Shown piece by piece: positions 124 through 54,723 of a DNA stretch of 64,000 nucleotides (the first letter of the stretch is position 1; each line of letters starts with the position of its first letter). The notes beneath the pieces were generated by a model. It was not told the DNA's origin. It saw nothing but the letters and a program-made list of their open reading frames with translations, and searched no databases. This stretch comes from Hymenobacter sp. DG01 (GTDB lineage Bacteria; Bacteroidota; Bacteroidia; Cytophagales; Hymenobacteraceae), in NCBI RefSeq assembly GCF_006352025.1, contig NZ_CP040936.1:620001-684000 (forward strand), written 5' to 3'. The position numbers and the translations under genes were made by a program.

Positions 124-2595
124 TTACTGAATCACGATGCGCTGGGTGCTGGTTTTGTCGCCGGTGAAGCGCATCAGGTACACGCCGGGCTTCAGCTTGT
201 CGCTGTGGATGTTGAGCAGGGTTTGCTTGCCCACGCTCACCTGCGAAAGTACCCGGCCCATCAGGTCCACTACTTCAATGCTTTTTACGTGCAGTGGGTT
301 GGTGCCCAGCTTCACGGTGAGCTTATCGTGGGCCGGATTGGGGAACACATCAATGCCGATGCCGGCCAGGCTGCTGGCGTTTGAGCTAACGGTGCAGTTC
401 ATAGCCGTTCCGCCCAGGCCGCTGATAGAAGCCATGGAGGTAGCCAGCACCATCTTATCCAGCTGGGCCCCACCACCGGTGTTGTAGGCAATAGTCAGAG
501 TGTGGGGGCCTGCGGGCAGTACCATGTCTCTGAGCTTGGTCCAGCCCCAGCCGCCGCCGGCATTCACCTCTTTCACGCTCACGTCATCAATGTAATACGT
601 GTTGGCTACCTGGCCCATGTCGAACAGGAAGGTGGTAGAAGCTATGGAAGCCGTGATGGTCCAGGAAACCTGCTTCCACTCCGTGTCAATGGTCTGATCG
701 GCCTGGTACTGGGCGCCCGAAGGACCCGTGGACAGGCGGATGGAGCCCCCGGCCGCGGCCGCTTTTACCCAGTAGGAAATGGTGTACTGCTTGCCTACGG
801 TAGTAGGGAAGGCGGCGCTGGTTACTTGCACTCGCCACTGGTTGCCGGGCTGGGCGGTGGGGTTCACCACTTTCATAGAGCCGGTGCCGCTGTGAGCCTC
901 CGTGGCTACGGTATTGGCCGTGATGGTCGCGCCCGTCGTGTTCAGGGTCGTCCAGCCGGTCAGGCCGTTCTCGAAACCGCCGTTGGATACCAGCTGGCTG
1001 CCTACCGACTGGAAGGCCTCATTATCCACTTTGAGCCAGTAGCCATACTCCTCGCCGGCCGGCACGTTCTGGCGCGCCACCAGATTGTAGGTAGCCGCGC
1101 TGTCGATCAAGAAGGGTATGGTCAGGTAGGAAATGGCGCCAGTAGGGGCAGTGGTGGGGCTGGTCAGGCCGTTTTTCACCCGCACGTACTTGCCACCCGA
1201 AGCGTCAGCATTCGACACCACCTCCCAGTTGGAGCCCACGGCGGCGCATTCGGCTTCCATCCAGAGGCGCTTTCCCAAGGGCTCAGCCGGCAGCACGGCG
1301 TTGTTGGTACCCCACCACTTATACCAGCGCTGGTAATCCAGGGCGGGGTAGGGGTGGGTGGTGATGTTGGTGTTTACGCTGGTGTTACCCAGCAGGAATT
1401 TGTCCACGAAGGCCTCGATGGCCGGGCGCTGGGTGGTAGGAATGGCGCAGTGGTTGTGGCCGCCGTCGATGTAGAAGCCGAACCGGTCGCCGATGCCGAA
1501 GGTCTTCCACACCTCGTGCGCGGCCCTGGCCGATACGTAAGCCGCCGGGTTAGCCAGCCACTCAAAATCGGTGTTGCCGGTTACCAGCAGCGCGCGGGGC
1601 GCAATCATGGCCATCAGCTCGTGGTGGTCGTGGGGCAGCTTGTTTACGTTGGTGTTCTCAAACCGCTTCATGTCGTCCTTAAACCAGCGGTAATCGGTAG
1701 CACCCAGCTTTTCTACGGCGCCCAGCGTTTCGGAAACGCGCCAGGCCGGCGCCCCGCCCCCGCCCGACTCCTGGGCGATGGTAAGAGCAATCCGCTCATC
1801 AAGCGCCCCGGAGAACAGGGCCATTTTGCCGGCGTAGGAGCAGCCCGTTACGCCAATGTGCTTCAGGTCAACGGGCAGCTGAGACTGCACCAGCTCCAGG
1901 CCGTCTATGATGCGGCTCACGCCCCAGGCCCAGGCGCTGTACTGGCCCGAGTTGTCGAGGTTCTGCTCGGGGTAGAGCTTATAGTAAGGGTCCGTTATCA
2001 GGGGGTTGCCGTAGGTAGTTACCTGATTGTGGCTGAAGGTGATACGGGCCACGTTGCGACTGGTAAAAATATCGGCCGGCAGGCTGCCGTTGGCGCTGTT
2101 CATCCCAATAACGGCCGGGAACGGACCGGTGCCCGTAGGCAGGGCTATCTGCGAGGTCAGGACCAGGGTTTGCCCGTTTACCGTCACGTTCACGGTGAGC
2201 ACGCCCGTGCCGGCGGTGGTACCGGCGGCGTAGCTGGCTGTAATGGTTTCGGGCTTGGCCGGCTTGCGGCCTATCTCATAGTTCTCAATTTCGGCCTTGA
2301 TTTCGTTGCGGCGGCACTCCCAGTCCGTAAAGCTAGTGGAGCGGCCCCGGCCATCTGACCACATAAACGGGTCGGGGAGGGGGGCAATGGCCGGCAGTTG
2401 GTCGAAGCTGGGCAGGGGCGGCGCGGTGCAGGTAGTGCCGGTGTTTTCGGAGGAATACACCAGTGGAATCTGCTGGCCGAAGGAGCTCAGGCCCAGAACG
2501 CTCAGCAGCAGGGTAGCAACGGCTGTTTTTGCTATTCGGGCCGGGGCGGCTTGTCTTGTAGAGGTGTTACCAGAAGAGGAAATCATTGTTTTCAT
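124..2595 (-). CDS. Secreted CE15-like glucuronoyl esterase with nested CBMs and T9SS sorting domain
   Basis: Predicted secreted carbohydrate esterase of the CE15 (4-O-methyl-glucuronoyl methylesterase) family. These enzymes cut the ester between lignin and glucuronoxylan. Residues 1-41 form a signal peptide with a long n-region and hydrophobic core AVATLLLSVLGL. The alpha/beta-hydrolase domain spans about 60-405. The nucleophile is Ser253 in GCSYAGK, Glu276 lies in AQESGGGG with the Ser-to-Glu spacing of known CE15 enzymes, a second acidic candidate is Glu345 (TDFEWL), and the probable His is in GGHNHC (380-382). The Arg of the fungal GCSR motif is Tyr here. Residues 442-532 and 683-718 look like two halves of one CBM6/35-type domain, with a CBM4_9-like domain (about 533-677) inserted between them. 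The last 75 residues are a type A Por/T9SS sorting domain (VFPNPA... GVYLMRF). Function is inferred from family motifs. Confidence 0.85.
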   Translation of the reverse strand: MKTMISSSGNTSTRQAAPARIAKTAVATLLLSVLGLSSFGQQIPLVYSSENTGTTCTAPPLPSFDQLPAIAPLPDPFMWSDGRGRSTSFTDWECRRNEIKAEIENYEIGRKPAKPETITASYAAGTTAGTGVLTVNVTVNGQTLVLTSQIALPTGTGPFPAVIGMNSANGSLPADIFTSRNVARITFSHNQVTTYGNPLITDPYYKLYPEQNLDNSGQYSAWAWGVSRIIDGLELVQSQLPVDLKHIGVTGCSYAGKMALFSGALDERIALTIAQESGGGGAPAWRVSETLGAVEKLGATDYRWFKDDMKRFENTNVNKLPHDHHELMAMIAPRALLVTGNTDFEWLANPAAYVSARAAHEVWKTFGIGDRFGFYIDGGHNHCAIPTTQRPAIEAFVDKFLLGNTSVNTNITTHPYPALDYQRWYKWWGTNNAVLPAEPLGKRLWMEAECAAVGSNWEVVSNADASGGKYVRVKNGLTSPTTAPTGAISYLTIPFLIDSAATYNLVARQNVPAGEEYGYWLKVDNEAFQSVGSQLVSNGGFENGLTGWTTLNTTGATITANTVATEAHSGTGSMKVVNPTAQPGNQWRVQVTSAAFPTTVGKQYTISYWVKAAAAGGSIRLSTGPSGAQYQADQTIDTEWKQVSWTITASIASTTFLFDMGQVANTYYIDDVSVKEVNAGGGWGWTKLRDMVLPAGPHTLTIAYNTGGGAQLDKMVLATSMASISGLGGTAMNCTVSSNASSLAGIGIDVFPNPAHDKLTVKLGTNPLHVKSIEVVDLMGRVLSQVSVGKQTLLNIHSDKLKPGVYLMRFTGDKTSTQRIVIQ

Positions 2596-12678: not shown

Positions 12679-13956
12679 CTAGCGCTCCAGCAGGACTTCC
12701 GTGCCCAACACCACTAGGTCCACACTACCTTTCAGGGTTTGGTCGATGAAGGGGGTGTTTTGGGACTTCGATTTCATGAAATCCCGCGTAAAGGTCGTTT
12801 CTGCTTCGGTATCGAACAAAATGCAGTTAGCTTCTTGCCCGACTTCGATGGTGGGCACCGGCAGGTCCATCAAGCGGCGGGGCTCCGCTGAGTAGCGCTT
12901 CACCACCAAATCCCACCCAAATTTGCCGGGCTCCACGAAGAAGTGATACAGCGACACCAGGGCCGTATCCAGGCCGGTGATGCCATTGGGGGCGCTGATG
13001 AAATCCTGGGCTTTCTCGAAGGGCGTGTGCGGGGCGTGGTCGGTGGCAATGAGGTCGAATACGCCTTCCTTGAGGCCTTCGAGCAGAGCGTCACAATCGG
13101 CCTGGGTGCGCAGGGGCGGGTTCATTTTGTAGTTCGTGTCGTAGTCGCCGATGTGCTCGTCGGTGAACAGCAGGTGGTGAGGGGCCACTTCGGCCGTCAC
13201 TTTTACATCGCCCCTGGACTTCCACCAGCGGATGGTTTCCATGCCCTCCTTGCTGGAAACGTGCTGGATGTGGACGTGCGCGCCCGCCGCCCGGGCCAGC
13301 CGAATGTCGCGGTCAATGATGATTTCCTCGGCGCAGGCCGGTGAGCCTTTGATGCCGAGCCGGTAGCTCATCACGCCTTCGTTGAGGGCGCGCGGCCCGG
13401 CCAGCTCCGGCACCTCGCAGTGGCTGGCGAAAAACATCCCGAACTCGGTGGCGTACTGCATGGCCCGCAGCAGCACGGCCGGGTCGCTGGTGGTGTCGCC
13501 GTCGTCGGTGAGCATTTTCACGCCCAGTTCACGCATACCCTCAATTTCGGCCAGCTCCTTGCCCTCGCGGTTTTTGGTGACGCAGCCGGAAGTATAGACC
13601 GGAATGCGAGCCCGGTCGCGGGCGTTTTCCAGCACCGACGCCACCGCAGAGGCCGAGTCGAGGGCCGGGCGGGTGTTGGGCATCATCACCACGCCGGTAA
13701 TGCCGCCGTTAATGGCCGCCTCGCTGCCTGTGGTAATGGTTTCCTTGTTCTCGAAGCCGGGGGCGCGGAAATGGACGTGGGCATCAAACATGCCCGGCAT
13801 CAGAATACGCCTGCGTGCGTCGATGACCCGGGCCCCCTCGGGAGCGGTCAGGCTTTTGCCGATGTCCTGGATTTTTCCTTCGACAATCAGGACATCGCCC
13901 TCGAGCAGTGCGGGTGAGTTTTCGGAGGCTATGCGGGCGTTTTGAAGGAGAAGCAT
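12679..13956 (-). CDS. pyrC: Dihydroorotase
   Basis: Class I-type dihydroorotase (amidohydrolase fold) catalysing cyclisation of carbamoyl-aspartate. The start is placed at ATG 13956 (MLLLQNARIA), the family-typical beginning; an in-frame upstream ATG at 14082 would overlap pyrB. Metal and active-site motifs are DAHVHFRAPGFENKE, VMMPNTRPA, KMLTDDGDT, FASHCEVPE, HIQHVSSKEG and ATDHAPHTPFEK. Length is 425 residues. It follows pyrB by 82 nt on the same strand, so the two probably form an operon for the second and third steps of UMP synthesis. Confidence 0.95.
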   Translation of the reverse strand: MLLLQNARIASENSPALLEGDVLIVEGKIQDIGKSLTAPEGARVIDARRRILMPGMFDAHVHFRAPGFENKETITTGSEAAINGGITGVVMMPNTRPALDSASAVASVLENARDRARIPVYTSGCVTKNREGKELAEIEGMRELGVKMLTDDGDTTSDPAVLLRAMQYATEFGMFFASHCEVPELAGPRALNEGVMSYRLGIKGSPACAEEIIIDRDIRLARAAGAHVHIQHVSSKEGMETIRWWKSRGDVKVTAEVAPHHLLFTDEHIGDYDTNYKMNPPLRTQADCDALLEGLKEGVFDLIATDHAPHTPFEKAQDFISAPNGITGLDTALVSLYHFFVEPGKFGWDLVVKRYSAEPRRLMDLPVPTIEVGQEANCILFDTEAETTFTRDFMKSKSQNTPFIDQTLKGSVDLVVLGTEVLLER

Positions 13957-38739: not shown

Positions 38740-39456
38740 TTAACTTAAATCGAGCAGCCACTGCGGCGGCTCAGCTTCCAGCGCCAAGGCCGCTAGGTTA
38801 AGCCAGGCCCCTGCCCGGTCTAGCACCGCCGAATCGGAAGTCACGACAATATCAGTGGTTTCGGCTAGCACATTATCGGGGTTCATTACTACCTCCACCG
38901 TCCAGGGCAACCCGAGCACTGGGCCCAGCTCGCGCAGGCGCGCCGCCAGCCGGCCGCTGTTAGACACGGGCTGATCCAGCAGCCACCGCACGGGGCCAGG
39001 CGCAAGGGGGAACAGGGCCGCCGCGGCCAGCCGAATGGCCCGGTCAGTTTCCTGCACGGCCCGGTAGGTGCCGTGTATGCTCGATAGGTCGCGTAAAGCT
39101 CCGTCGCGGCCGCGCAGCACCACGCCCCCGCTCAGAGCCGTTTCCAGGGTAATCAGCAGGTTGAATCCATCAATGGACACCGGTCGGTTGCCGAGGTTGG
39201 CGGCCGGGAGCTGGGTAGCTCGGCGCTGCTGGTACTGCTCGTCGGTGCAGGCGGCCCGGCCCACGGCCCAGCGCTGCCGCTCGGTCAGGGCGTATCGGTT
39301 GCCGACCAGCTGGAGGGTAGCCGCCGGTGGATACCCGCGTGTGAGGAGCCAGGACAGCTCCCCAACGGCCTTGCGTAATACCGGTACCCAATTGGGAGCA
39401 AACAGTTGGGTATCGGCCGGGTGGGGGCCCCGGTGGCGCGTGTCGGCAGGTCGCAT
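38740..39456 (-). CDS. DUF434/DUF5616-domain protein
   Basis: The start is placed at ATG 39456 (MRPADTRHRGPHP), giving 238 residues. GELSWLLTRGYPPAATLQLVGNRYALTERQRWAVGRAAC is the DUF434 region, and VSIDGFNLLITLETALSGGVVLRGRDG and EVVMNPDNVLAETTDIVVTSDSAVLD form the C-terminal nuclease-like DUF5616 region with several conserved Asp. Biochemical role unknown. A REP-like pair lies just upstream. Confidence 0.82.
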   Translation of the reverse strand: MRPADTRHRGPHPADTQLFAPNWVPVLRKAVGELSWLLTRGYPPAATLQLVGNRYALTERQRWAVGRAACTDEQYQQRRATQLPAANLGNRPVSIDGFNLLITLETALSGGVVLRGRDGALRDLSSIHGTYRAVQETDRAIRLAAAALFPLAPGPVRWLLDQPVSNSGRLAARLRELGPVLGLPWTVEVVMNPDNVLAETTDIVVTSDSAVLDRAGAWLNLAALALEAEPPQWLLDLS

Positions 39457-39741
39457 AGTAGGCGTTGTGGATAATGGACAGCAAAGAAAGAACGTCATAT
39501 CGAACTGGTCGAGACATCTTGCGTGCTGATGCTGTAGTACTACCCCAACGATTCGAGCGAGATGTCTCGACAAGCTCGACATGACGTTCTTAAGTACTTA
39601 TATAAGTATTGTTCAGGTGATGCTACCTGTTCACAAACTTTGGTAAGAACGGAGGGGTAGCGAAGGCAGGATGCGCGGTAAAGCACCGGATTTCTCCGGC
39701 AACGCCTGCCCGTCAAATACACCACTTCACAAGTTCACCAT
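39457..39741. other. Intergenic region with REP-like inverted pair
   Basis: Holds the repeat pair at 39491-39591 and about 150 nt of otherwise featureless sequence before the LytTR-family gene stop at 39742. Confidence 0.5.
39491..39591. repeat. REP-like inverted repeat pair
   Basis: Left copy 39491-39530 (AACGTCATATCGAACTGGTC, GAGACATC) and inverted right copy 39554-39591 (GAGATGTCTCGACAAGCTCG, ACATGACGTTC), with a 23-nt spacer. Confidence 0.75.
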
Positions 39742-43255: not shown

Positions 43256-44827
43256 ATGCGTTTCAACTTACCCTTCCGCCGGCCTTCTCCGGCTCCGGTG
43301 CTCAACCACGAGGGCGCACCGGCCTATACCCTCACCCCCGCCTTGGAGCTGTACGCCGCCGTGGCTACCGCCGCCCTCAGCGACCAGTTCTACGAAACCG
43401 CCGACACCCGCCTGGTGCGCCTGCGCGAGCTGGTAGCCCGCAACGACCCCGAGTTTGTGGCCCGCTTGGCCGTATATGCCCGCGAAAAGCTGCATCTGCG
43501 CTCCGTGCCGTTGGTGCTGGCCGTGGAGCTGGCCCGCCAGCACCAGGGCACCAACCTGGTTAGCCGCCTGGTAGCCAGCGTGGTGCAGCGCCCCGATGAA
43601 ATCACGGAACTGCTGGCCTACTACGCCCATGCCAACGGCCGCACCGGCCTCAAAACACTGAATCGCCTCTCCAAGCAGGTGCAAAAAGGGTTGGCCCAGT
43701 CCTTCAACCGCTTCGATGGCTACCAGTTGGCCAAGTACGACCGGGCCGGCGCCGTGCGCCTCCGCGACGCGCTGTTCCTGGTGCACCCCCGCCCCGCCGA
43801 CGAGGCCCGGCAGGCCCTGTTCAACCAACTGGTGGCCGGCACCCTGCCCAGGCCCTACACCTGGGAAACCGAGTTGTCGGCCCTGGGGCAGGTAGGCTTT
43901 GCCACGGATGCTGAAAAAGCGGCTGCGTTCCGCCAAAAATGGACTGAGCTGATTGGCAGCGGTAAGCTGGGCTACATGGCCTTGCTGCGCAACCTGCGCA
44001 ATATTTTGCAGGCCGGCGTGCCCGCGGAGGTAGTAACGCAGGTGTGCGCTACCCTGGCCGATGCCCGGGCCGTGGCCCGCAGCAAGCAGCTGCCTTTCCG
44101 CTTCCTGGCTGCCTACCGCGAGGTGCTGGCCCTGGAAGAAGGCACGCTGAAGTCGGTGCTGGCCGCCGTGGGTTTGCGCCAAAGCCCGGTGCCGCAGGTG
44201 CTGGCCGCCCTGGAAGCCGCCATTGGCCACAGCGCCGCCAATCTGCGCGGGTTTGGTCCCGAAACCCGGGTAGTAGTGGCCTGCGACGTGTCGGGCTCCA
44301 TGCAACAGCCCATTTCTCCGCGCAGCAAAGTGCTGCACTATGATGTAGGCCTGGTGCTGGGGATGCTCTTGCAGAGCCGCTGCCAAAACGTGGTAACCGG
44401 CATGTTCGGCAACACCTGGAAGCGGCTGGCCCTGCCCCGCGGCCCGGTGCTCGGCAACGTGCAGGAGTTCTACAAGCGCGAAGGCGAGGTAGGGTACAGC
44501 ACCAACGGCTACCTCGTTATCGAGGACTTGCGCCTGCGTCGGGAGGTGGTGGATAAGGTGATGCTGTTCACCGACTGTCAGCTCTGGAACTCTCACTTCA
44601 ACGGCTCCAGCGTAGCCAAAGAGTGGGCGGAGTACCGGCGCATGGTCGCCCCGCAGGCCCAGCTCTACCTCTTCGACTTGGCCGGCCACGGCACCACGCC
44701 CCTGCAGGTACACCCCGAGCACGGCGCCGCCCTGATTGCCGGCTGGTCGGATAAGATTTTCGACGTGCTGGCGGCCCTCGACAACGGCGGCTCCGCCCTC
44801 ACCGAAATCGAGCAGATCGAGCTGTAA
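43256..44827 (+). CDS. rsr: Ro60/Rsr-type TROVE-domain RNA-binding protein
   Basis: A 523-residue orthologue of Ro60. The TROVE module of HEAT-like helices (about 20-320, including AYTLTPALELYAAVATAALSDQFYE, GRTGLKTLNRLSKQVQKGLA and YMALLRNLRNILQAGVP) forms the ring that binds Y RNA and misfolded-RNA ends. A vWA domain follows with MIDAS residues DVSGSM (about 343-348), STNGY (about 414) and FTDCQ (about 438). Bacterial Ro proteins work with Y RNAs in rRNA maturation and RNA decay. Here the gene starts a locus with PARG, seven Y-RNA-like genes and rtcB, all on the same strand. Confidence 0.95.
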   Translation: MRFNLPFRRPSPAPVLNHEGAPAYTLTPALELYAAVATAALSDQFYETADTRLVRLRELVARNDPEFVARLAVYAREKLHLRSVPLVLAVELARQHQGTNLVSRLVASVVQRPDEITELLAYYAHANGRTGLKTLNRLSKQVQKGLAQSFNRFDGYQLAKYDRAGAVRLRDALFLVHPRPADEARQALFNQLVAGTLPRPYTWETELSALGQVGFATDAEKAAAFRQKWTELIGSGKLGYMALLRNLRNILQAGVPAEVVTQVCATLADARAVARSKQLPFRFLAAYREVLALEEGTLKSVLAAVGLRQSPVPQVLAALEAAIGHSAANLRGFGPETRVVVACDVSGSMQQPISPRSKVLHYDVGLVLGMLLQSRCQNVVTGMFGNTWKRLALPRGPVLGNVQEFYKREGEVGYSTNGYLVIEDLRLRREVVDKVMLFTDCQLWNSHFNGSSVAKEWAEYRRMVAPQAQLYLFDLAGHGTTPLQVHPEHGAALIAGWSDKIFDVLAALDNGGSALTEIEQIEL

Positions 44828-44994
44828 TACTCATAGAGTGCCACTTCAACCCTACTTACTTCATCCTTCCCGCTGCATCACTAGCCCCTATTCCTACCCC
44901 TCTATAGCTACTAAACCATGCGGCCCCGGGAGTGGCTTGCGGCAGCCCAATAGCGGTGCCACTCCCGGGTCACGTCCCGACAACCTGTACTTCA

Positions 44995-45846
44995 ATGAAC
45001 CGAGAAATACGACAACGCATAGCCCACAGCACCCTTGACGCTTTGCAGCGAGGTAGCTACGAAAACCCGGCCGGCCAGCCGGTGCTCCTGACGGAATACC
45101 AGCAAGCCGCCGAAACCGGCAGCTGCTTGTACCGCCCGGAAGATGGAGCGGACCTGCTGCGCGAGTTTGATCAGCCCGCGGGTGATCCGGCTGAGTTGAG
45201 GGTATATCAGGCTACGACCCTCGAAGCGGCCGCCAACCTGGTGAGCCAGTTCGAGCGGGTAGGTTGTCTGAACTTCGCTTCGGCCCGCAACCCCGGCGGC
45301 GGTTTCCTGGGTGGCAGCCAGGCCCAGGAAGAAAGCCTGGCGCGCTCCTCGGGGTTATATCCGTGCCTGACGCAGTTCAAGGAAATGTACCGCCACAACA
45401 GCCTTCCCGGCAGCACCGGCCTCTACAGCGACTACCTGGTGTACTCGCCCCAGGTGCCCGTGCTGCGCGGCGAAGCGGGGGAGTGGCTGCCCCAGCCCTT
45501 CCGGCTGGACGTGCTGACGGCCCCGGCCGTGAATGCCGGCGCCCTGCGGCGCAACTCCCCGGAGTTGCTACCCCAGCTGGAGCCCGTGATGCGCCACCGC
45601 CTGCGGCTGGTGCTGGCCGCCGCTGTCCGCCACGGCGTGGAGGCGCTGGTCCTCGGAGCCTGGGGCTGCGGGGTGTTTGGCAACGACCCAGCGCAGGTAG
45701 CTGGGTTATTTGCCGAAGCCTTAGCTGACCCGGCCATCCGGGGCCGTTTCCGTCGCCTCGACTTTGCCATCTTCGACCCCAAACCGCCCCACGCGGTGCT
45801 GACAGCCTTTCAGCAGATAATTCATTCTCCGGCTGCGAAAACCTAG
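44995..45846 (+). CDS. Microbial-type poly(ADP-ribose) glycohydrolase (TIGR02452)
   Basis: The start is placed at ATG 44995 (MNREIRQRIAHSTL), giving 283 residues. The macrodomain-related PARG core contains CLNFASARNPGGGFLGGSQAQEESLARSS, with the GGG...QEE catalytic signature whose second Glu is the catalytic residue, and the later VEALVLGAWGCGVFGNDPAQVAGLF phosphate-binding loop. Such enzymes remove ADP-ribose from macromolecules. It follows the Ro60 gene by 167 nt with no terminator between, so co-transcription is likely, suggesting that ADP-ribosylated RNA or protein is one substrate of the locus. A terminator follows at 45919. Confidence 0.92.
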   Translation: MNREIRQRIAHSTLDALQRGSYENPAGQPVLLTEYQQAAETGSCLYRPEDGADLLREFDQPAGDPAELRVYQATTLEAAANLVSQFERVGCLNFASARNPGGGFLGGSQAQEESLARSSGLYPCLTQFKEMYRHNSLPGSTGLYSDYLVYSPQVPVLRGEAGEWLPQPFRLDVLTAPAVNAGALRRNSPELLPQLEPVMRHRLRLVLAAAVRHGVEALVLGAWGCGVFGNDPAQVAGLFAEALADPAIRGRFRRLDFAIFDPKPPHAVLTAFQQIIHSPAAKT

Positions 45847-46140
45847 TAGAAATACAAACACGGCAGTAACAGAGTAGCCAGGTGCTGCTACCCCTGTAAA
45901 GAGGCCTAAACCTAGCTGAAGCGTAGTTTTTTTACGCTTTTTATCATATCATAATCACCTGTTGTCACGTTCATACCCATGAAGTCTTCTTGCCAAACTC
46001 CTCTTATAGTAACATAACTACTCCCAGAAGCCACGGCTTCTACTGATTGGGGCGGCGGCTGACCACTTGATGGCTGCCGCCGGCCGGGGCGGCATACCGC
46101 CGGGGCACTGAGCTCCGGCGGCCCGCTCCAAACCGGCTGA
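45847..46140 (+). other. Spacer between PARG and the Y-RNA array
   Basis: About 295 nt with the PARG terminator, an AGAAGCC-AC-GGCTTCT palindrome near 46027-46042, and a very GC-rich block of hairpins (46048-46138: GGCGGC...GCCGCC and CCGCCGG...CCGGCGG). The block has neither conserved Y motif but may be a decayed array unit. The array promoter should be in this spacer; I see no clear TAnnTTTG box. Confidence 0.5.
45919..45943 (+). terminator. Terminator of the Ro60-PARG transcript
   Basis: Stem AAGCGTA (45919-45925) / TACGCTT (45933-45939) followed by TTTT. It separates the protein genes from the RNA array. Confidence 0.75.
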
Positions 46141-46282
46141 CCTCTGCCCGTTTGGGTGCCATAGGCAGGCGTTACTTCGTCTTGGTTGAATACGCCGGTG
46201 CTCCCGGTGTAGGGTTCGATTCCCACCCCGCAGCTCCGGCTGTGGGGTACTCGCCGGCCGCTAGTTGCCCCAAACGCCGAGG
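46141..46282 (+). ncRNA. Y-RNA-like gene 1, tRNA-like head without D-arm
   Basis: The outer stem is CCTC/GAGG plus CGTTTGGG (46149-46156)/CCCAAACG (46269-46276). The Ro-type motif GGTGCCATAG lies opposite GTTGCCCC. The inner stem GGCAGGCG pairs with CGCCGGCC near the 3' side (7 of 8 pairs). The head has TTACTTCG, a T-arm with TTCGATT loop (46209-46226, one bulged A), and a perfect closed acceptor hairpin CCCCGCAGC-TCCG-GCTGTGGGG (46226-46247), after which the D-arm is reduced to TACT. Length about 142 nt. Confidence 0.82.
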
Positions 46283-46290
46283 TGCAGCCG

Positions 46291-46462
46291 AAAAATCACC
46301 CTGCCGGGTGTCGTAGCGCAGCGTTACTTCGGGTCGCCCGTTCGATTCGGGCCAGTCCAGCCCCATTTTTTTACCTTGGACTGTAGCTCAGTTGGTAGAG
46401 CAGAACGGCCTTCGGGCTGGTCATTTCGCTGCTCGTTCGTTGCCCCGGTAGGTTTTATTTTT
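46291..46462 (+). ncRNA. Y-RNA-like gene 2, full tRNA-like head
   Basis: Outer stem AAAAAT/ATTTTT (46291-46296 and 46457-46462) plus CCTGCCGGG/CCCGGTAGG. Motifs GGTGTCGTAG and GTTGCCCC. Inner stem GCAGCG/CGCTGC. Head: TTACTTCG, T-arm GCCCG-TTCGATT-CGGGC (46336-46352), acceptor strands CAGTCCA (46353-46359) and TGGACTG (46377-46383) joined by a 17-nt loop, then TA and a perfect tRNA D-arm GCTC-AGTTGGTA-GAGC (46386-46401). Because the acceptor is closed, it cannot be aminoacylated. Length about 172 nt. Confidence 0.87.
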
Positions 46463-46617
46463 CCGTGGGAGTAGGTGCCGTAACCAGGCCCTACTTCGCG
46501 CTCTTAACGCCCAGGTCGCGGGTTCAAATCCCGCTGGTAGCTGTTTCACAGTTGCTGTAGCTCAGTCAGGTAGAGCAGGACAGAAGGCCCGGTGCTTGTT
46601 GCCCCACCCCCGCGGAA
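46461..46617 (+). ncRNA. Y-RNA-like gene 3, full tRNA-like head
   Basis: The outer stem TTCCGTGGGAGTAGG (46461-46475) pairs with 46604-46617 (two A-C mismatches). Motifs GGTGCCGTAA and GTTGCCCC. Inner stem ACCAGGCC/GGCCCGGT (one mismatch). Head: CTACTTCG, then CTCTTAA (46501-46507) flanked by GCG/CGC, which looks like a leftover tRNA-Lys(CUU) anticodon loop, T-arm GCGGG-TTCAAAT-CCCGC, closed acceptor of nine pairs (46535-46557), D-arm GCTC...GAGC (46560-46576). Length about 157 nt. Confidence 0.87.
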
Positions 46618-46618
46618 A

Positions 46619-46786
46619 ACAGAAAGGTGAGTGTCGTAGGAAAGCGCTACTTCGTCGGTTGGCCTTCTGTGGCCCGCGGGTTCGAATCCCGCCTTGCTCC
46701 CTAGCGTGGGCAAGTGGCTGAGTGGTCAAAACCGCCCAGTTTACAGAACGCTTTCCGCTGGTTACCTCACCTCTACTAGTATCTGT
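46619..46786 (+). ncRNA. Y-RNA-like gene 4, class-II-like tRNA head
   Basis: Outer stem ACAGA/TCTGT plus GGTGAG/CTCACC. Motifs GAGTGTCGTAG and GGTTACCTC (a variant of GTTGCCCC). Perfect inner stem GGAAAGCG (46639-46646)/CGCTTTCC (46749-46756). Head: CTACTTCG, T-arm GCGGG-TTCGAAT-CCCGC (46676-46692), closed acceptor CTTGC...CC/GG...GCAAG (46693-46714), then a Leu/Ser/Tyr-type D-arm (46716-46736). Its 3' outer strand overlaps the 5' strand of gene 5 by about 6 nt. Length about 168 nt. Confidence 0.85.
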
Positions 46787-46933
46787 TCGGGTGCCGTAGG
46801 GCGGCCATACTTCGCATTTGGGTCGCCCGGGTCGTGGGTTCGAGTCCCACCAGTTGCTACCCTCGGGTAGGAGCTGTAGCTCAGCTAGGTAGAGCAGGAT
46901 ACAGGGGCCGCCCGCCTGTTGCCCCGAACAGAT
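46781..46933 (+). ncRNA. Y-RNA-like gene 5, full tRNA-like head
   Basis: The clearest unit. Perfect 11-bp outer stem ATCTGTTCGGG (46781-46791)/CCCGAACAGAT (46923-46933); motifs GGTGCCGTAG and GTTGCCCC; perfect 8-bp inner stem GGGCGGCC (46799-46806)/GGCCGCCC (46906-46913). Head: ATACTTCG, T-arm GTGGG-TTCGAGT-CCCAC (46834-46850), closed acceptor of about 10 pairs (46851-46876: CAGTT, mismatch, CTACC / GGTAG, mismatch, AGCTG), TA, D-arm GCTC...GAGC (46879-46895). Length 153 nt. Confidence 0.9.
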
Positions 46934-46949
46934 GGTATTGATTACTCCC

Positions 46950-47041
46950 GAGCGGCCGGCCGGTGTCGTAGGGCAGGCATACTTCGTTAACTGTTCATTA
47001 GCCCCAAGGGCCTGTCCGCCTTATTACCCTGCTGGCCGCTC
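46950..47041 (+). ncRNA. Y-RNA-like gene 6, short, simple head
   Basis: Outer stem GAGCGGCC (46950-46957)/GGCCGCTC (47034-47041). Motif GGTGTCGTAG; the 3' partner is the variant ATTACCC. Inner stem GGGCAGGC (46971-46978)/GCCTGTCC (47010-47017). The head keeps ATACTTCG but has only a small GCCC-CAA-GGGC hairpin instead of tRNA-like arms. Length 92 nt. Confidence 0.75.
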
Positions 47042-47048
47042 CTTTCTC

Positions 47049-47151
47049 TTCCGCTTTCGGATGCCGTAGGGTCGCGTTACTTCGGCCTGAGAGCGGGTGC
47101 ACACCCACCCCTCAGGATACGCTGCCCGCCCGTTGCTCCGTCGCGCCGGAA
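47049..47151 (+). ncRNA. Y-RNA-like gene 7, short, simple head, just upstream of rtcB
   Basis: Outer stem TTCCG/CGGAA plus CGGA/TCCG. Motifs GATGCCGTAG and GTTGCTCC. Inner stem GGG..GCG/CGC..CCC. The head has TTACTTCG and a hairpin with CCTGAG/CTCAGG and GGGT-GCAC-ACCC. It ends 27 nt before the rtcB ATG and has no terminator, so it may be cut out of the rtcB transcript. Length 103 nt. Confidence 0.78.
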
Positions 47152-47178
47152 ATTTCTCTCAAGTACATTCTTACTCGT

Positions 47179-48582
47179 ATGGCCTCACAACTACGCGGCA
47201 ACGACCTTCGGCAGCTTGGCTTCCCGGAAGGCCGTGCCATCGGACTCGCGCTGGCCCAACTGCAGCGCAAACACCTCAAAAAACTTTCTCAAACCGATCA
47301 GCTCACGCTCCTGAAGGAGCTGCTGGCGAATCCCGCCTCTTACCTCACCCACCTCGACTGGAGCCACACGGCCGCCGCGTTGCTACCCCCGCCCAGCCGG
47401 CACATTGCCCTCACCGAGCGCAAGGAGTACGCCGTGTTCGGGGCCGAGTACATCGAGCAGGGCGCCATCCACCAGATGGAAACGGCCATGAAGCTGCCCG
47501 TCACCGTGGCCGGGGCTCTCATGCCCGACGCCCACCACGGCTATGGCCTGCCCATTGGCGGGGTGCTGGCCACCGATAACGCTGTAATTCCCTACGCCGT
47601 AGGCGTGGACATTGGCTGCCGCATGGCGCTGTCGGTGTTTGCCCTGCCTCCAAAGTTTCTGGACCAGCGGGTGCAGGAGTTGCGCAAGCTGCTGCTCGAC
47701 AACACTAAGTTCGGCAACCGCGACGTGTTCCGCCACGGCCAGAAGCTGGGCCACGCCGTCCTCGACCGCTCCGAGTTCCAGGAAATTCCCTTCCTACGCA
47801 ACAAGCTCGACACAGCCGCCGCGCAAATCGGCTCCTCCGGGGGCGGCAACCACTTTGTGGAGTGGGGCGTGGTCGACATCACCGACCCCCGCAACGAGCT
47901 GGGGATGCCCGTGGGCCAGTACCTGGGGCTGCTTTCCCACTCCGGTTCCCGCGGCCTGGGCGCCAGCATCGCCAACCACTACACCAAGCTGGCCCAGGAT
48001 ACCTGCCAACTGCCTGCCGAAGCCCGTCACCTCGCCTGGCTGGGCCTCGACACCGAAGCCGGGCAGGAGTACTGGGCCGCCATGAACCTGGCTGGTGATT
48101 ACGCCTCGGCCTGCCACCACCAGATTCACCAGCGCCTGGCTAAGGCCCTGGGCGAGCGGCCCCTGGCCAAAGTGGAAAACCACCACAACTTCGCCTGGAA
48201 AGAGCGCCTCATCGACGGCCGGGAGGTGGTCGTCCACCGGAAAGGGGCCACGCCAGCCGGCAAAGGTGTGCTGGGCATCATCCCGGGCTCCATGACGGCT
48301 CCTGGCTTTATTGTGCGGGGTAGGGGCGAGGCGGCCTCGCTGGCCTCGGCTTCCCACGGCGCGGGCCGGCAGATGTCGCGCACCCGGGCCAAGCAGGAGC
48401 TGGGCGAAGCCGACGTGCGCCGTTACCTCCAGCAGCACGGCGTAGAGCTGCTGGGCGGGGGCGTGGATGAGGCCCCCCAGGCCTACAAAGACATTCACCA
48501 AGTCATGCAAAGCCAAACCGACCTAGTGGATGTGCTCGGCTCTTTCCTGCCGCGTATCGTGCGCATGGAAGGTGGTGTGTAG
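47179..48582 (+). CDS. rtcB: RNA-splicing ligase RtcB
   Basis: A 467-residue GTP/Mn-dependent ligase joining 3'-phosphate or 2',3'-cyclic phosphate ends to 5'-OH ends. Active-site motifs: MPDAHHGYGLPIGGVLA, YAVGVDIGCRMALS (metal Cys about 147), SSGGGNHFVEWG, LLSHSGSRGLGA, KVENHHNFAWKE, and SASHGAGRQMSR with the His that carries GMP. No archease or RtcA is adjacent. Position directly after the Y-RNA array and Ro60/PARG genes matches known rsr-Y RNA-rtcB operons. A strong terminator follows. Confidence 0.96.
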   Translation: MASQLRGNDLRQLGFPEGRAIGLALAQLQRKHLKKLSQTDQLTLLKELLANPASYLTHLDWSHTAAALLPPPSRHIALTERKEYAVFGAEYIEQGAIHQMETAMKLPVTVAGALMPDAHHGYGLPIGGVLATDNAVIPYAVGVDIGCRMALSVFALPPKFLDQRVQELRKLLLDNTKFGNRDVFRHGQKLGHAVLDRSEFQEIPFLRNKLDTAAAQIGSSGGGNHFVEWGVVDITDPRNELGMPVGQYLGLLSHSGSRGLGASIANHYTKLAQDTCQLPAEARHLAWLGLDTEAGQEYWAAMNLAGDYASACHHQIHQRLAKALGERPLAKVENHHNFAWKERLIDGREVVVHRKGATPAGKGVLGIIPGSMTAPGFIVRGRGEAASLASASHGAGRQMSRTRAKQELGEADVRRYLQQHGVELLGGGVDEAPQAYKDIHQVMQSQTDLVDVLGSFLPRIVRMEGGV

Positions 48583-52830: not shown

Positions 52831-52912
52831 GCGCACGTGGTGAAACTGGTAGACACGCCATCTTGAGGGGGTGGTGCCTTCGGGTGTGGGAGTTCGAATC
52901 TCCCCGCGCGCA
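52831..52912 (+). tRNA. tRNA-Leu (GAG)
   Basis: Class II tRNA. Acceptor GCGCACG/CGCGCGC (one A-C mismatch at pair 5-68), D-arm, anticodon stem CCATC/GGTGG with loop TTGAGGG giving anticodon GAG, variable arm GCC-TTCG-GGT, T-arm GGGAG-TTCGAAT-CTCCC, discriminator A. CCA is not encoded. Its own promoter and terminator make it monocistronic. Confidence 0.92.
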
Positions 52913-52920
52913 CTCTTGAA

Positions 52921-53139: not shown

Positions 53140-54723
53140 CTATTCCGCCCGCTCGAAGGGGTTGGCGGGCACCACTAGGAGCACGTTTTCGCGTTCCACT
53201 ACTACTTGCCCGGTAATGGCGCCTTTGGGCTTGCGCACAAACTTTTTGGGCGTGTATGTAACGGGACAGAGCGAATCGTTTTTGCGGCGTGAGTACCAGG
53301 CGGCCAGTTGCGCCGCCCGCTCCAGCACTGGCGCCGGCACCGTCTGGCCCGGCCGCTGCCGGATGACCACATGGGAGCCGGTTACGTCCTTGGCGTGCAG
53401 CCACAGGTCGTCTTTGTGGGCGTAGCGCTGGGTTAGCAGGTCGTTGTTCTGAGCATTACGGCCCACCAGAATAGTAAAGCCGCTGTCTTCAAATACCTTG
53501 AACGGTAGCTCCTGGGCGGCTTTGGCGGCCGTGGCCGGGTCGAGGCCGTGCTGCTTGCGCCACTGACGCAGGGTTCGGAGGTCGCCGGGGGGTAGGGCGG
53601 CCAGTTCCTCCAGGCGCTCCAGGCACCACATAGCTTCGGTTTCGCGGCGCTCGGCGCGGGCGCTCAGCTCCCGCGTTTCCAGCTGCTGGTTTTTGGCTTT
53701 GCGGTAAAGGTTCTGGGCCGTGCGCTGGGGCGTTTCGGAGGGCTTGAGCTTGATGACGCGCGGCTGGTTGTCCTGGTAGAAATCGACCACTTCTACCTGC
53801 TTGGCGCCGGCCGGAATCTGGCTGAGGTGAGCCATAATCAGGTCGGCGGTCTGGCGGTAGCCCACGGTGTTTTCCAGGGCGTGCAGGCGTAGCCGGACGT
53901 GCTGGGCGCTGGTGGCGGCTTCGTCGGCGCGCTTTTCCAGCTGCTGGCGCACCTGCCGCAGCTCGCCCTCATAGGCCCGGCGGTTGAGCAGCAGCGGCAC
54001 GAAGCGGCGCAGCGCCCCAATGGGGTCGGTGGCGGGCAACGTCAGCTCTACCTCACCCACAGGCAGCAAACTCAGGCGCGTGCGCCCATCCAGCCGGATA
54101 ACGTAGAAAGCCGCCGGATTTTCCAGCTCCTGTACCACCTCTTGCACCAATTGCCACTTGTGCTCCAGCGGGGCCGGATCGTAGCCACGGGTGCGCAGAT
54201 AAGCTGCCACTACGTCGTTGAGGCTGGGGTATGCTTTCAGTGGATTGCTCGGCAGGTCGGCGGCCTCGGGAGGGGTAGGGGCGGTGAGGGCCGAGGTAGG
54301 CTGCAGCTCCGCATCGGCAGTGTAACGCTGGTGGAACAGCTGGACCGGAGCTTCGGGGGTAGGGCGGAAGATGGCGTTGGGCCGGGTGCTATAGAGCTTC
54401 AGCAGTAGGGTAGCGCCGCTCTGGAAGGTAAACTGCAGCACCCGGTCGTTGGGCCAGGCGGCTACCTCGGCTACCTGCTGGCCCAGTAGCTCCGGCAATA
54501 AATCAACGGAGTTCTGCCGGGCCCGGTGAAACGACTCAGGCAGGGTAATCAGCGGGCCGGCCGCGGCCAGTAGTACCCGCAGCCAGAACTCTTCTGCACC
54601 ATTGGTCAGGCCCAGTACCAACTCATCCTTTTCCTGCGAAAAGCATGCTACTACCGTATAGCCAGTTAATTGCTGGGTAAGGGCCGGGGCGAGCTGGCGC
54701 AGGAAGTAGTAGTTGGTGTGCAT
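53140..54723 (-). CDS. rqcH: RqcH/NFACT-family ribosome quality-control protein
   Basis: A 527-residue NFACT protein (Rqc2/FbpA family). The N-terminal NFACT-N domain (about 1-190) carries the Asp-Arg pair in PNDRVLQF (93-94), needed for tRNA selection in alanine-tailing homologues. Long coiled-coil/HhH region about 215-390. The C-terminal NFACT-R domain (about 415-527) contains LPFKVFEDSGFTILVGRNAQNND and DDLWLHAKDVTGSHVVIR. In bacteria this factor adds alanine tails to nascent chains on stalled large subunits. The gene stands alone. Confidence 0.92.
   Translation of the reverse strand: MHTNYYFLRQLAPALTQQLTGYTVVACFSQEKDELVLGLTNGAEEFWLRVLLAAAGPLITLPESFHRARQNSVDLLPELLGQQVAEVAAWPNDRVLQFTFQSGATLLLKLYSTRPNAIFRPTPEAPVQLFHQRYTADAELQPTSALTAPTPPEAADLPSNPLKAYPSLNDVVAAYLRTRGYDPAPLEHKWQLVQEVVQELENPAAFYVIRLDGRTRLSLLPVGEVELTLPATDPIGALRRFVPLLLNRRAYEGELRQVRQQLEKRADEAATSAQHVRLRLHALENTVGYRQTADLIMAHLSQIPAGAKQVEVVDFYQDNQPRVIKLKPSETPQRTAQNLYRKAKNQQLETRELSARAERRETEAMWCLERLEELAALPPGDLRTLRQWRKQHGLDPATAAKAAQELPFKVFEDSGFTILVGRNAQNNDLLTQRYAHKDDLWLHAKDVTGSHVVIRQRPGQTVPAPVLERAAQLAAWYSRRKNDSLCPVTYTPKKFVRKPKGAITGQVVVERENVLLVVPANPFERAE

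Follow-up and report, generated by a model that had tools for sequence, protein, structure and literature searches.

The 64,000-nt stretch of the Hymenobacter sp. DG01 genome analyzed here (contig NZ_CP040936.1, positions 620,001 to 684,000; the window) carries on its forward strand, in this order, genes for a Ro60-type protein with a TROVE domain and for a PARG, seven tandem RNA units (46146-47155) and a gene for the RNA ligase RtcB. We conclude with high confidence that the seven units are an array of Y RNAs that mimic tRNAs. A first-pass annotation of this DNA had proposed a Ro60-PARG-RtcB locus with seven Y-RNA units, and both the Pfam matches of the proteins and the positions of the seven cores and TACTTCG motifs bear this out. 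It overlooked the permuted tRNA mimicry of the heads, and this mimicry, not the copy number, is the unusual feature of the locus. Passages of PMC8394870 describe bacterial Y RNAs as mimics of three tRNA arms (D, T and acceptor). Here the mimicry also takes in class II bodies (Leu and Ser type) and an anticodon-like loop whose frame is fixed while its triplet changes, in arrays that are kept with Ro60 and often with RtcB.

Each of the seven units has a 5' core (GRTGYCRTAR), an 8-nt spacer and TACTTCG (Table 1). Our core search, which tolerated at most a single mismatch in each motif and spacers 4-16 nt long, gave seven matches on the forward strand of the window, all inside the array, and none on the reverse strand. 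The 3' core reads GTTGCCCC in units 1, 2, 3 and 5 and GTTGCTCC in unit 7, with deviating forms in unit 4 (GTTACC) and unit 6 (ATTACC). The minimum free energy (MFE) z scores of units 1 to 7, folded as single sequences, were -2.9, -1.9, -0.4, -2.5, -2.7, -4.4 and -1.2 (100 mononucleotide shuffles each), so that units 3 and 7 are unremarkable by their own fold energy. The lower stem of unit 7 is the weakest of the seven, with 4 + 5 interrupted pairs by eye (its automated stem score of 4.5 used the wrong 3' strand).

We compared the array with the loci of the best 80 of 179 confirmed TROVE relatives, which together with the window make 81 loci, nearly all from Bacteroidota by title (one metagenome-assembled genome is titled Williamsia). 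All 81 loci, which had been picked by TROVE, contained at least one core, and two (L104 and L107) contained only one. The total was 488 cores, with a spacer of exactly 8 nt in 472; a single mononucleotide shuffle of all 81 sequences (1.53 Mb, forward strand) gave six core matches, and given this count a few of the 488 may be chance matches. In the 50 loci of the Hymenobacter clade the arrays have 4 to 11 units with a median of 7 (a few stray matches included). The size of the array, put forward by the first-pass annotation as new, is therefore ordinary, and we rejected it as a novelty.

The units share a conserved two-part stem that covaries strongly across relatives. In 429 units from the 81 loci the outer stem had a median score of 16 with cognate strands, compared with -0.5 when strands were swapped within an array and 2.0 with shuffled 5' strands (for 59 of the 488 cores no candidate 3' core was found, and these were left out of this scoring). 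For an alignment (A1) we took 79 full-head units with low redundancy, recognized T and D arms and a stem score of at least 10. It has five helices with 35 pairs, 30 of which show two-sided changes; 94.7% of its cells are paired, against 38.2-49.8% when slid, and its covariation score of 0.739 (against 0.106-0.187) was reached by none of 500 shuffles. Helices 1 and 2, the lower stem and the inner stem formed by the 8-nt spacer, have 93.8% and 94.6% paired cells and two-sided changes in 18 of 19 pairs, and the acceptor stem has 92.0% paired cells; the lower stem was itself a selection criterion for A1, unlike the inner and acceptor stems. Where the D stem pairs it does not vary, and it is hence uninformative. 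The first-pass annotation had made its Y-RNA-type stems depend on covariation in related genomes; the cognate stem scores and the covariation, obtained with RNAalifold and pair counts and not with R-scape, confirm them.

In many heads, those of units 2-5 of the window included, a T arm is followed by an acceptor stem capped with a small loop and then by a D arm, an order that is a circular permutation of tRNA; the Ro stem joins where the anticodon arm of a tRNA would sit. Helices 3-5 of A1 correspond to this domain. Unit 2 has exactly such a plan, with a T arm at 46336-46352, the closed acceptor stem, a D arm at 46384-46401 and, by eye, a UUCG-type hairpin after the D arm. The head of unit 4 combines a long arm of variable type (46661-46674) with a Ser-type D arm (46714-46735), and that of unit 1 carries, besides other hairpins, a 3-bp stem topped by a T-loop-like sequence, with no D arm recognized; the heads do differ between units, as first proposed. 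By strict patterns, 349 of the 488 units have a T loop and 163 have both a T loop and a D arm. The Rfam YrlA model (RF02553), which has a permuted T-acceptor-D head of its own, matches units 5, 2 and 3 and weakly unit 4. Its gathering score of 69 bits is not reached (best 37.5 bits, unit 5), and for this reason we do not file the units as RF02553. ARAGORN finds no canonical tRNA at 46146-47155, and the best score of the Rfam tRNA model at the array is 21.1 bits, under the required 29; the acceptor strands are joined by a loop and leave no free 3' end.

Heads of class I, Leu type and Ser type all occur. The genome's own tRNA-Ser(UGA) carries GTGGCAGAGTGGTC, one base apart from the D arm of unit 4 (GTGGCTGAGTGGTC), and GTGGCGAAATTGGTAGACGC, present in other arrays, recurs in its own tRNA-Leu(CAG). 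Leu-type D arms were found in 18 and Ser-type D arms in 15 of the 50 Hymenobacter-clade loci (either in 29), labels that lean partly on what we take to be class II tRNA features; among the genome's own tRNAs the Leu pattern matched one of five Leu tRNAs and the Ser pattern none of four Ser tRNAs. Outside Hymenobacter, some heads with long arms in six loci (L094, L100, L103, L109, L112 and L116) resemble by eye normal-order tRNAs, with full-length anticodon arms of Asp, Met, Lys and Thr type; possibly these are units with a missed 5' core, or embedded tRNA genes.

Between TACTTCG and the T stem, many heads contain a loop that resembles that of an anticodon arm. Heads with a recognized T stem and the 8-nt spacer were entered (315 kept), and 95 of the 146 in class I have 24-26 nt in this interval, with a 7-nt loop at a fixed distance from the T stem, closed by 2-3 pairs (the other 51 fell outside this arm length and were left out). 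The pairs of the hairpin stem form at rates of 0.91, 0.93 and 0.85, compared with 0.08-0.76 when slid. Position 33 is T in 88 of the 95 heads and position 37 a purine in 92 (62 and 67 of 69 distinct arms), while positions 34-36 vary. The triplets correspond to Lys, Pro, Ile, Gln, Arg, Asn, Leu, Val and further amino acids, and CTTTTAA, with the Lys triplet UUU, is the commonest loop (22 heads). As in tRNAs, purine 37 tracks the triplet: among distinct loops it is G in 15 and A in 4 of the Pro/Leu type, and G in 4 and A in 17 of the others (p 3.4e-4). Eight of 49 distinct loops are identical to a loop among the 39 distinct tRNAs of the genome of the window, compared with means of 2.3 under the nulls (maxima of 2000: 8 and 7). 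Such heads occur in 45 of the 50 Hymenobacter-clade loci, with at least two different triplets in 24, and in 21 of the 31 other loci. We also applied the rule, fixed beforehand, to 14 further stretches, of which one (L174) was dropped as a duplicate of L089; the 13 held-out loci contained 55 cores and nine anticodon-like heads, with T33 in eight and a purine at 37 in seven. Within the window the hairpin is present in units 3 and 5 (Table 1), and the unit 5 hairpin is absent from the MFE fold, which favours another pairing. Among the matches listed in the open full-text literature we found no description of bacterial Y RNAs with anticodon-like loops, which is not proof of absence; the passages of PMC11090510 and PMC9503650 held nothing relevant.

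The triplet changes between close relatives, whose TROVE proteins are 92-97% identical to that of the window. In six close genomes the unit 5 loop is TTTGGGT (window and L039), TTTGCTT (L037 and L038), TTTTGGT (G146) or CTGTGGT (G120), giving the triplets UGG, UGC, UUG and GUG with T33 and position 38 constant; five of the seven loop columns vary, compared with 24 of 157 elsewhere in the unit (p 0.002). Over the 67 nearest pairs of heads, mismatch at positions 34, 35 and 36 is 0.37, 0.30 and 0.24 versus 0.103 outside the loop, with a nominal p of 1.6e-14 for pairs that are not independent. The hairpin stem mismatches at 0.065, the acceptor-end loop at 0.231, position 33 at 0.10 and position 37 at 0.21; the lowest values are those of TACTTC (0.006), the 5' core (0.024) and the D arm (0.039). 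By these rates no part of the unit is freer to vary than the triplet, whose frame is better kept.

The units travel with TROVE. Among 200 genomes of the family, 107 had a TROVE match and 107 an exact core; both were found in 103, one only in 4 + 4 and neither in 89 (Fisher 2.7e-46). In the four TROVE-only genomes (G031, G060, G087 and G151) the TROVE matches are fragments, short or broken; each of the four core-only genomes (G042, G096, G153 and G191) has a single match; and in G036 and G150 cores are still present beside TROVE fragments. The reversed core pattern had no match in the same 200 genomes. In a draw of 395 genomes of the phylum the core was found in 13 genomes, nine of them outside the genus (three with 2-5 matches and six with one); the reversed pattern matched five of the 395, once each, and single core matches therefore carry little weight at this scale.

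Partner genes were called in the 81 loci by tblastn (E <= 1e-8), where contig ends or distant homologues may hide some. RtcB was matched in 63 loci, PARG in 25 and both in 24. The commonest orders are TROVE-Y-RtcB (35 loci), TROVE-PARG-Y-RtcB (18) and TROVE-Y (17), with Y-TROVE-RtcB in three; PARG interrupts the array in six. PARG, first read as the mark of a specialised system, is thus optional, and we rejected it as a defining component.

Units were also found on viral contigs. A scan gave eight core matches, four of which (L163, L164, L166 and L167) look by eye like real units; in the others (L161, L162, L165 and L168) no Y-like 3' core was seen by eye, and they are probably due to chance. 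Contig L163 has a single Y-RNA-like unit beside five tRNA genes (12782-13212, reverse strand), and L166 one within a tRNA cluster (325-600, forward strand); no TROVE match was found in the examined stretches of either. In L164 (69-2153, forward strand) one exact and two one-mismatch Y cores directly precede a TROVE gene, whose product is 45% identical to that of the window over residues 15-523. L167 also has a TROVE gene (38%), and its CTGCTAA loop lies where ARAGORN calls a tRNA-Ser(GCU). According to passages of a review (PMC10136315), the early genes of phage crAss001 include a TROVE domain protein.

The arrangement recalls YrlA (RF02553) of the Salmonella rsr-yrlBA-rtcBA operon, where a Y-type stem likewise lies near a Ro/Rsr gene and RtcB (passages of PMC8394870 and PMC7790460) and the head is likewise a permuted T arm-acceptor-D arm domain. 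It differs in the Ro-side sequence (here GRTGYCRTAR-N8-TACTTCG), in the anticodon-like hairpin between stem and T arm, present here and lacking in RF02553, and in its 4-11 units (Hymenobacter clade) with class I, Leu-type and Ser-type heads. In the RYPER complex of Deinococcus radiodurans a Ro-type protein is likewise joined with a Y RNA, making a tether or gate role a candidate here, although the TROVE protein of the window is only distantly similar to the solved Rsr (2nvo, E 6.5e-4). RtcB is known from an RtcA-RtcB operon under RtcR and stands here beside Ro and Y RNAs, with an optional PARG; RtcA and RtcR were not found among the 10 flanking open reading frames scanned, and the rest of the genome was not searched for either. 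Phage tRNAs with altered anticodon loops, proposed in PMC10264068 to evade anticodon nucleases, likewise are tRNA-shaped RNAs with changed anticodon-loop sequences; those are true tRNAs, whereas the units here are permuted, with a closed acceptor stem and no free CCA end.

The array likely binds the neighbouring Ro60-type protein, with possibly different clients for different heads. According to passages of PMC4726728 and PMC8394870, the lower stem of bacterial Y RNAs is where Rsr binds, and the Deinococcus Y RNA tethers PNPase. For the heads we tentatively suggest, with well short of even confidence, a function as decoys or baits for tRNA-attacking enzymes. The array would be a single transcript cut into units, with Ro60 holding the stem of each; anticodon-directed or other tRNA-attacking enzymes would engage the heads in place of real tRNAs; RtcB could reseal a cut loop as it does tRNA halves, because the loop lies within a molecule clamped at both ends; and the optional PARG might remove ADP-ribose from RNA or protein. 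In passages of PMC7790460 the Salmonella Rsr-Y-RtcB operon is activated by damaged tRNAs and its authors raise the possibility that YrlA competes for the nuclease, an idea that the decoy function extends. A bolder version, which we consider rather unlikely, is that Bacteroidota keep a Ro60-held panel of permuted tRNA mimics as sacrificial decoys resealable by RtcB, some of them phage-borne, whose triplets are swapped between species in an arms race with tRNA-cutting toxins and defence nucleases. The function of bacterial Y RNAs and Ro beside an RNA ligase, long open, becomes testable through five bases of one head.

Several observations weigh against reading the heads as tRNA mimics or as decoys. 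Neither a T loop nor a D arm was recognized by pattern in 132 of the 488 units, and no tRNA-like head in units 6 and 7. The anticodon-like hairpin stem, at 2-3 bp, is less than a real anticodon stem, and 25 class-I heads, including that of unit 2, are too short for such a hairpin. Rotated into tRNA order, 51 of 93 heads were called by ARAGORN, compared with none in five rounds of shuffles (two of the 95 heads had no matching D arm and were left out); many of these calls had a wrong anticodon frame or none, and 17 of the 93 heads were called in native order, so that as a tRNA-finder test the outcome is mixed. The unit 5 loops of L037 and L038 have T at position 37, breaking the purine rule, and the unit 3 loop is nearly constant in the six close genomes (CTCTTAA in five, CTTTTAA in one). 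The triplet changes only slightly faster than the free acceptor-end loop (0.303 versus 0.231, p 0.053); a merely unconstrained triplet is compatible with this value, and diversifying selection is not established. TROVE shows no association with PrrC-like nucleases (PF13166, a broad family): it occurs in 26 of the 42 genomes with a match and in 81 of the 158 others (p 0.23), or in 12 of 23 genomes with a match above the cut-off (p 1.0); the genome of the window has no PF13166 match. We therefore rejected PrrC-specific decoys. In the passages of PMC7790460, YrlA fragments from a RecA-dependent nuclease were not detected in Salmonella.

Nearly as likely as the decoy function is that the heads recruit tRNA-recognizing partners such as PNPase, tRNA-modifying enzymes or synthetases to Ro60, different heads, with their anticodon-like loops, recruiting different partners. 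TACTTC, the 5' core and the D arm are the most constrained parts of the units, in keeping with such a tether, and anticodons are identity elements for several synthetases. A partner-specific triplet, however, should be conserved in orthologous heads, and that of unit 5 changes between close species; the neighbour search in the 81 loci, moreover, covered RtcB and PARG as partner genes. Precedents for a tether are the Deinococcus Y RNA, which links Rsr to PNPase, and YrlA, on which DusA and TruB act (passages of PMC8394870 and PMC4726728).

We regard as unlikely that the heads are relicts captured from tRNA genes, in which nothing but the Ro stem and the tRNA elbow matters and the loop persists as a structural remnant without constraint. 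The triplet variability near that of the free acceptor-end loop (p 0.053), the eight of 49 loops that match host tRNA loops and the Leu-type D arm that recurs in the genome's own tRNA-Leu(CAG) would fit such an origin. A relict should lose T33 (U in the RNA), the purine at 37 and the hairpin stem, which are instead kept across genera and in the held-out loci, and purine 37 still tracks the triplet.

Less probable still is a repair scaffold, in which Ro60 and the tRNA-like heads hold broken tRNAs and pass them to RtcB, the heads gating or sorting the tRNA halves. The presence of RtcB in 63 of 81 loci agrees with it, and passages of PMC7824862 describe a jumbo-phage ROT/TROVE protein with a tRNA-like partner as an RNA-repair platform; it leaves the variable anticodon-like triplets unexplained, and 18 of the 81 loci have no RtcB match in the examined stretch, although RtcB may lie elsewhere. 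Finally, the array lies immediately upstream of rtcB on the same strand and might be a structured leader controlling it, not a set of separate RNAs, which is very improbable given that every unit closes upon itself, that 17 loci are TROVE-Y without an RtcB match in the examined stretch and three are Y-TROVE-RtcB, and that two phage contigs have a single unit adjoining tRNA genes.

Some units of this kind are possibly mis-annotated as tRNAs, considering the ARAGORN calls on the 17 native heads and on one phage-contig unit.

Table 1. Protein genes, RNA units and anticodon-like hairpins of the locus (window coordinates).
Feature	Positions	Strand	5' core start	3' core start	Evidence and remarks
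Ro60/TROVE gene, 523 aa	43256-44827	+			PF05731 104.3 bits (cut-off 23), E 1.2e-29
Microbial-type PARG gene, ATG start	44995-45846	+			PF10021 149.3 bits, 1.3e-43; PDB 3sig 4.3e-61; optional locus member
Y RNA unit 1	46146-46278	+	46155	46264	TACTTCG 46173; class T-
Y RNA unit 2, permuted tRNA-like head	46297-46451	+	46307	46439	YrlA 36.2 bits, E 5.1e-6; in alignment A1
Y RNA unit 3, permuted tRNA-like head with anticodon-like hairpin	46463-46614	+	46474	46598	YrlA 30.3 bits, E 2.6e-4; in A1
Unit 3 anticodon-like hairpin, GCG-CTCTTAA-CGC	46498-46510	+			Triplet CUU (Lys type); seen in MFE fold
Y RNA unit 4, class-II-like head	46623-46772	+	46630		YrlA 20.6 bits, E 0.17
Y RNA unit 5, permuted tRNA-like head with anticodon-like hairpin	46781-46932	+	46790	46918	YrlA 37.5 bits, E 2.2e-6
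Unit 5 anticodon-like hairpin, GCA-TTTGGGT-CGC	46814-46826	+			Triplet UGG; third pair A.C
Y RNA unit 6, short head	46950-47041	+	46962		z -4.4; tRNA-like arms not recognized
Y RNA unit 7, short hairpin head	47049-47155	+	47060	47132	z -1.2
RtcB RNA ligase gene, 467 aa	47179-48582	+			PF01139 279.7 bits, 6.6e-83; PDB 1uc2 2e-30

The closest PDB relatives of the TROVE protein, 9l5y/9kop, are titled "TROVE domain-containing protein" (4.5e-25). Its C-terminus matches a vWA domain (PF25045) at 21.7 bits against the Pfam cut-off of 27.7 (E 2.1e-4), and the NCBIfam Rsr equivalog NF041674 gives 39.2 bits against a cut-off of 900. The PARG translation includes GGGFLGGSQAQEE, an instance of GGG-X6-8-QEE, which we take to be the microbial PARG motif; with the PF10021 match, this places it among the microbial PARGs. 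The alignment of RtcB to 1uc2 covers the GCR, GNHF, HSGSRG, HRKG and HGAGR blocks, presumably the metal and catalytic blocks. The genome (5.04 Mb) has a single TROVE gene; of the named relatives found, Hymenobacter latericoloratus and H. sediminis are closest, with TROVE 97% identical. Two more RtcB-family genes of this genome lie beyond the window, at a distance from the Y array (C1:592399-593481, reverse strand; 3848656-3849324, forward strand).

Elsewhere in the window, the Rfam matches to AaHKsRNA41 (39473-39641, both strands) and the other weak matches of a 16-kb scan fell below their gathering scores and were discarded. A DUF434/DUF5616 protein is encoded upstream of the locus (38740-39582, reverse strand), and an NFACT-domain protein (PF05833, PF05670), which we take to be a relative of the ribosome-rescue factor RqcH, 4.6 kb from rtcB (53140-54723, reverse strand). 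The sole tRNA gene that ARAGORN predicts in the window is a tRNA-Leu(gag) at 52831-52913 (forward strand), with an Rfam score above gathering.

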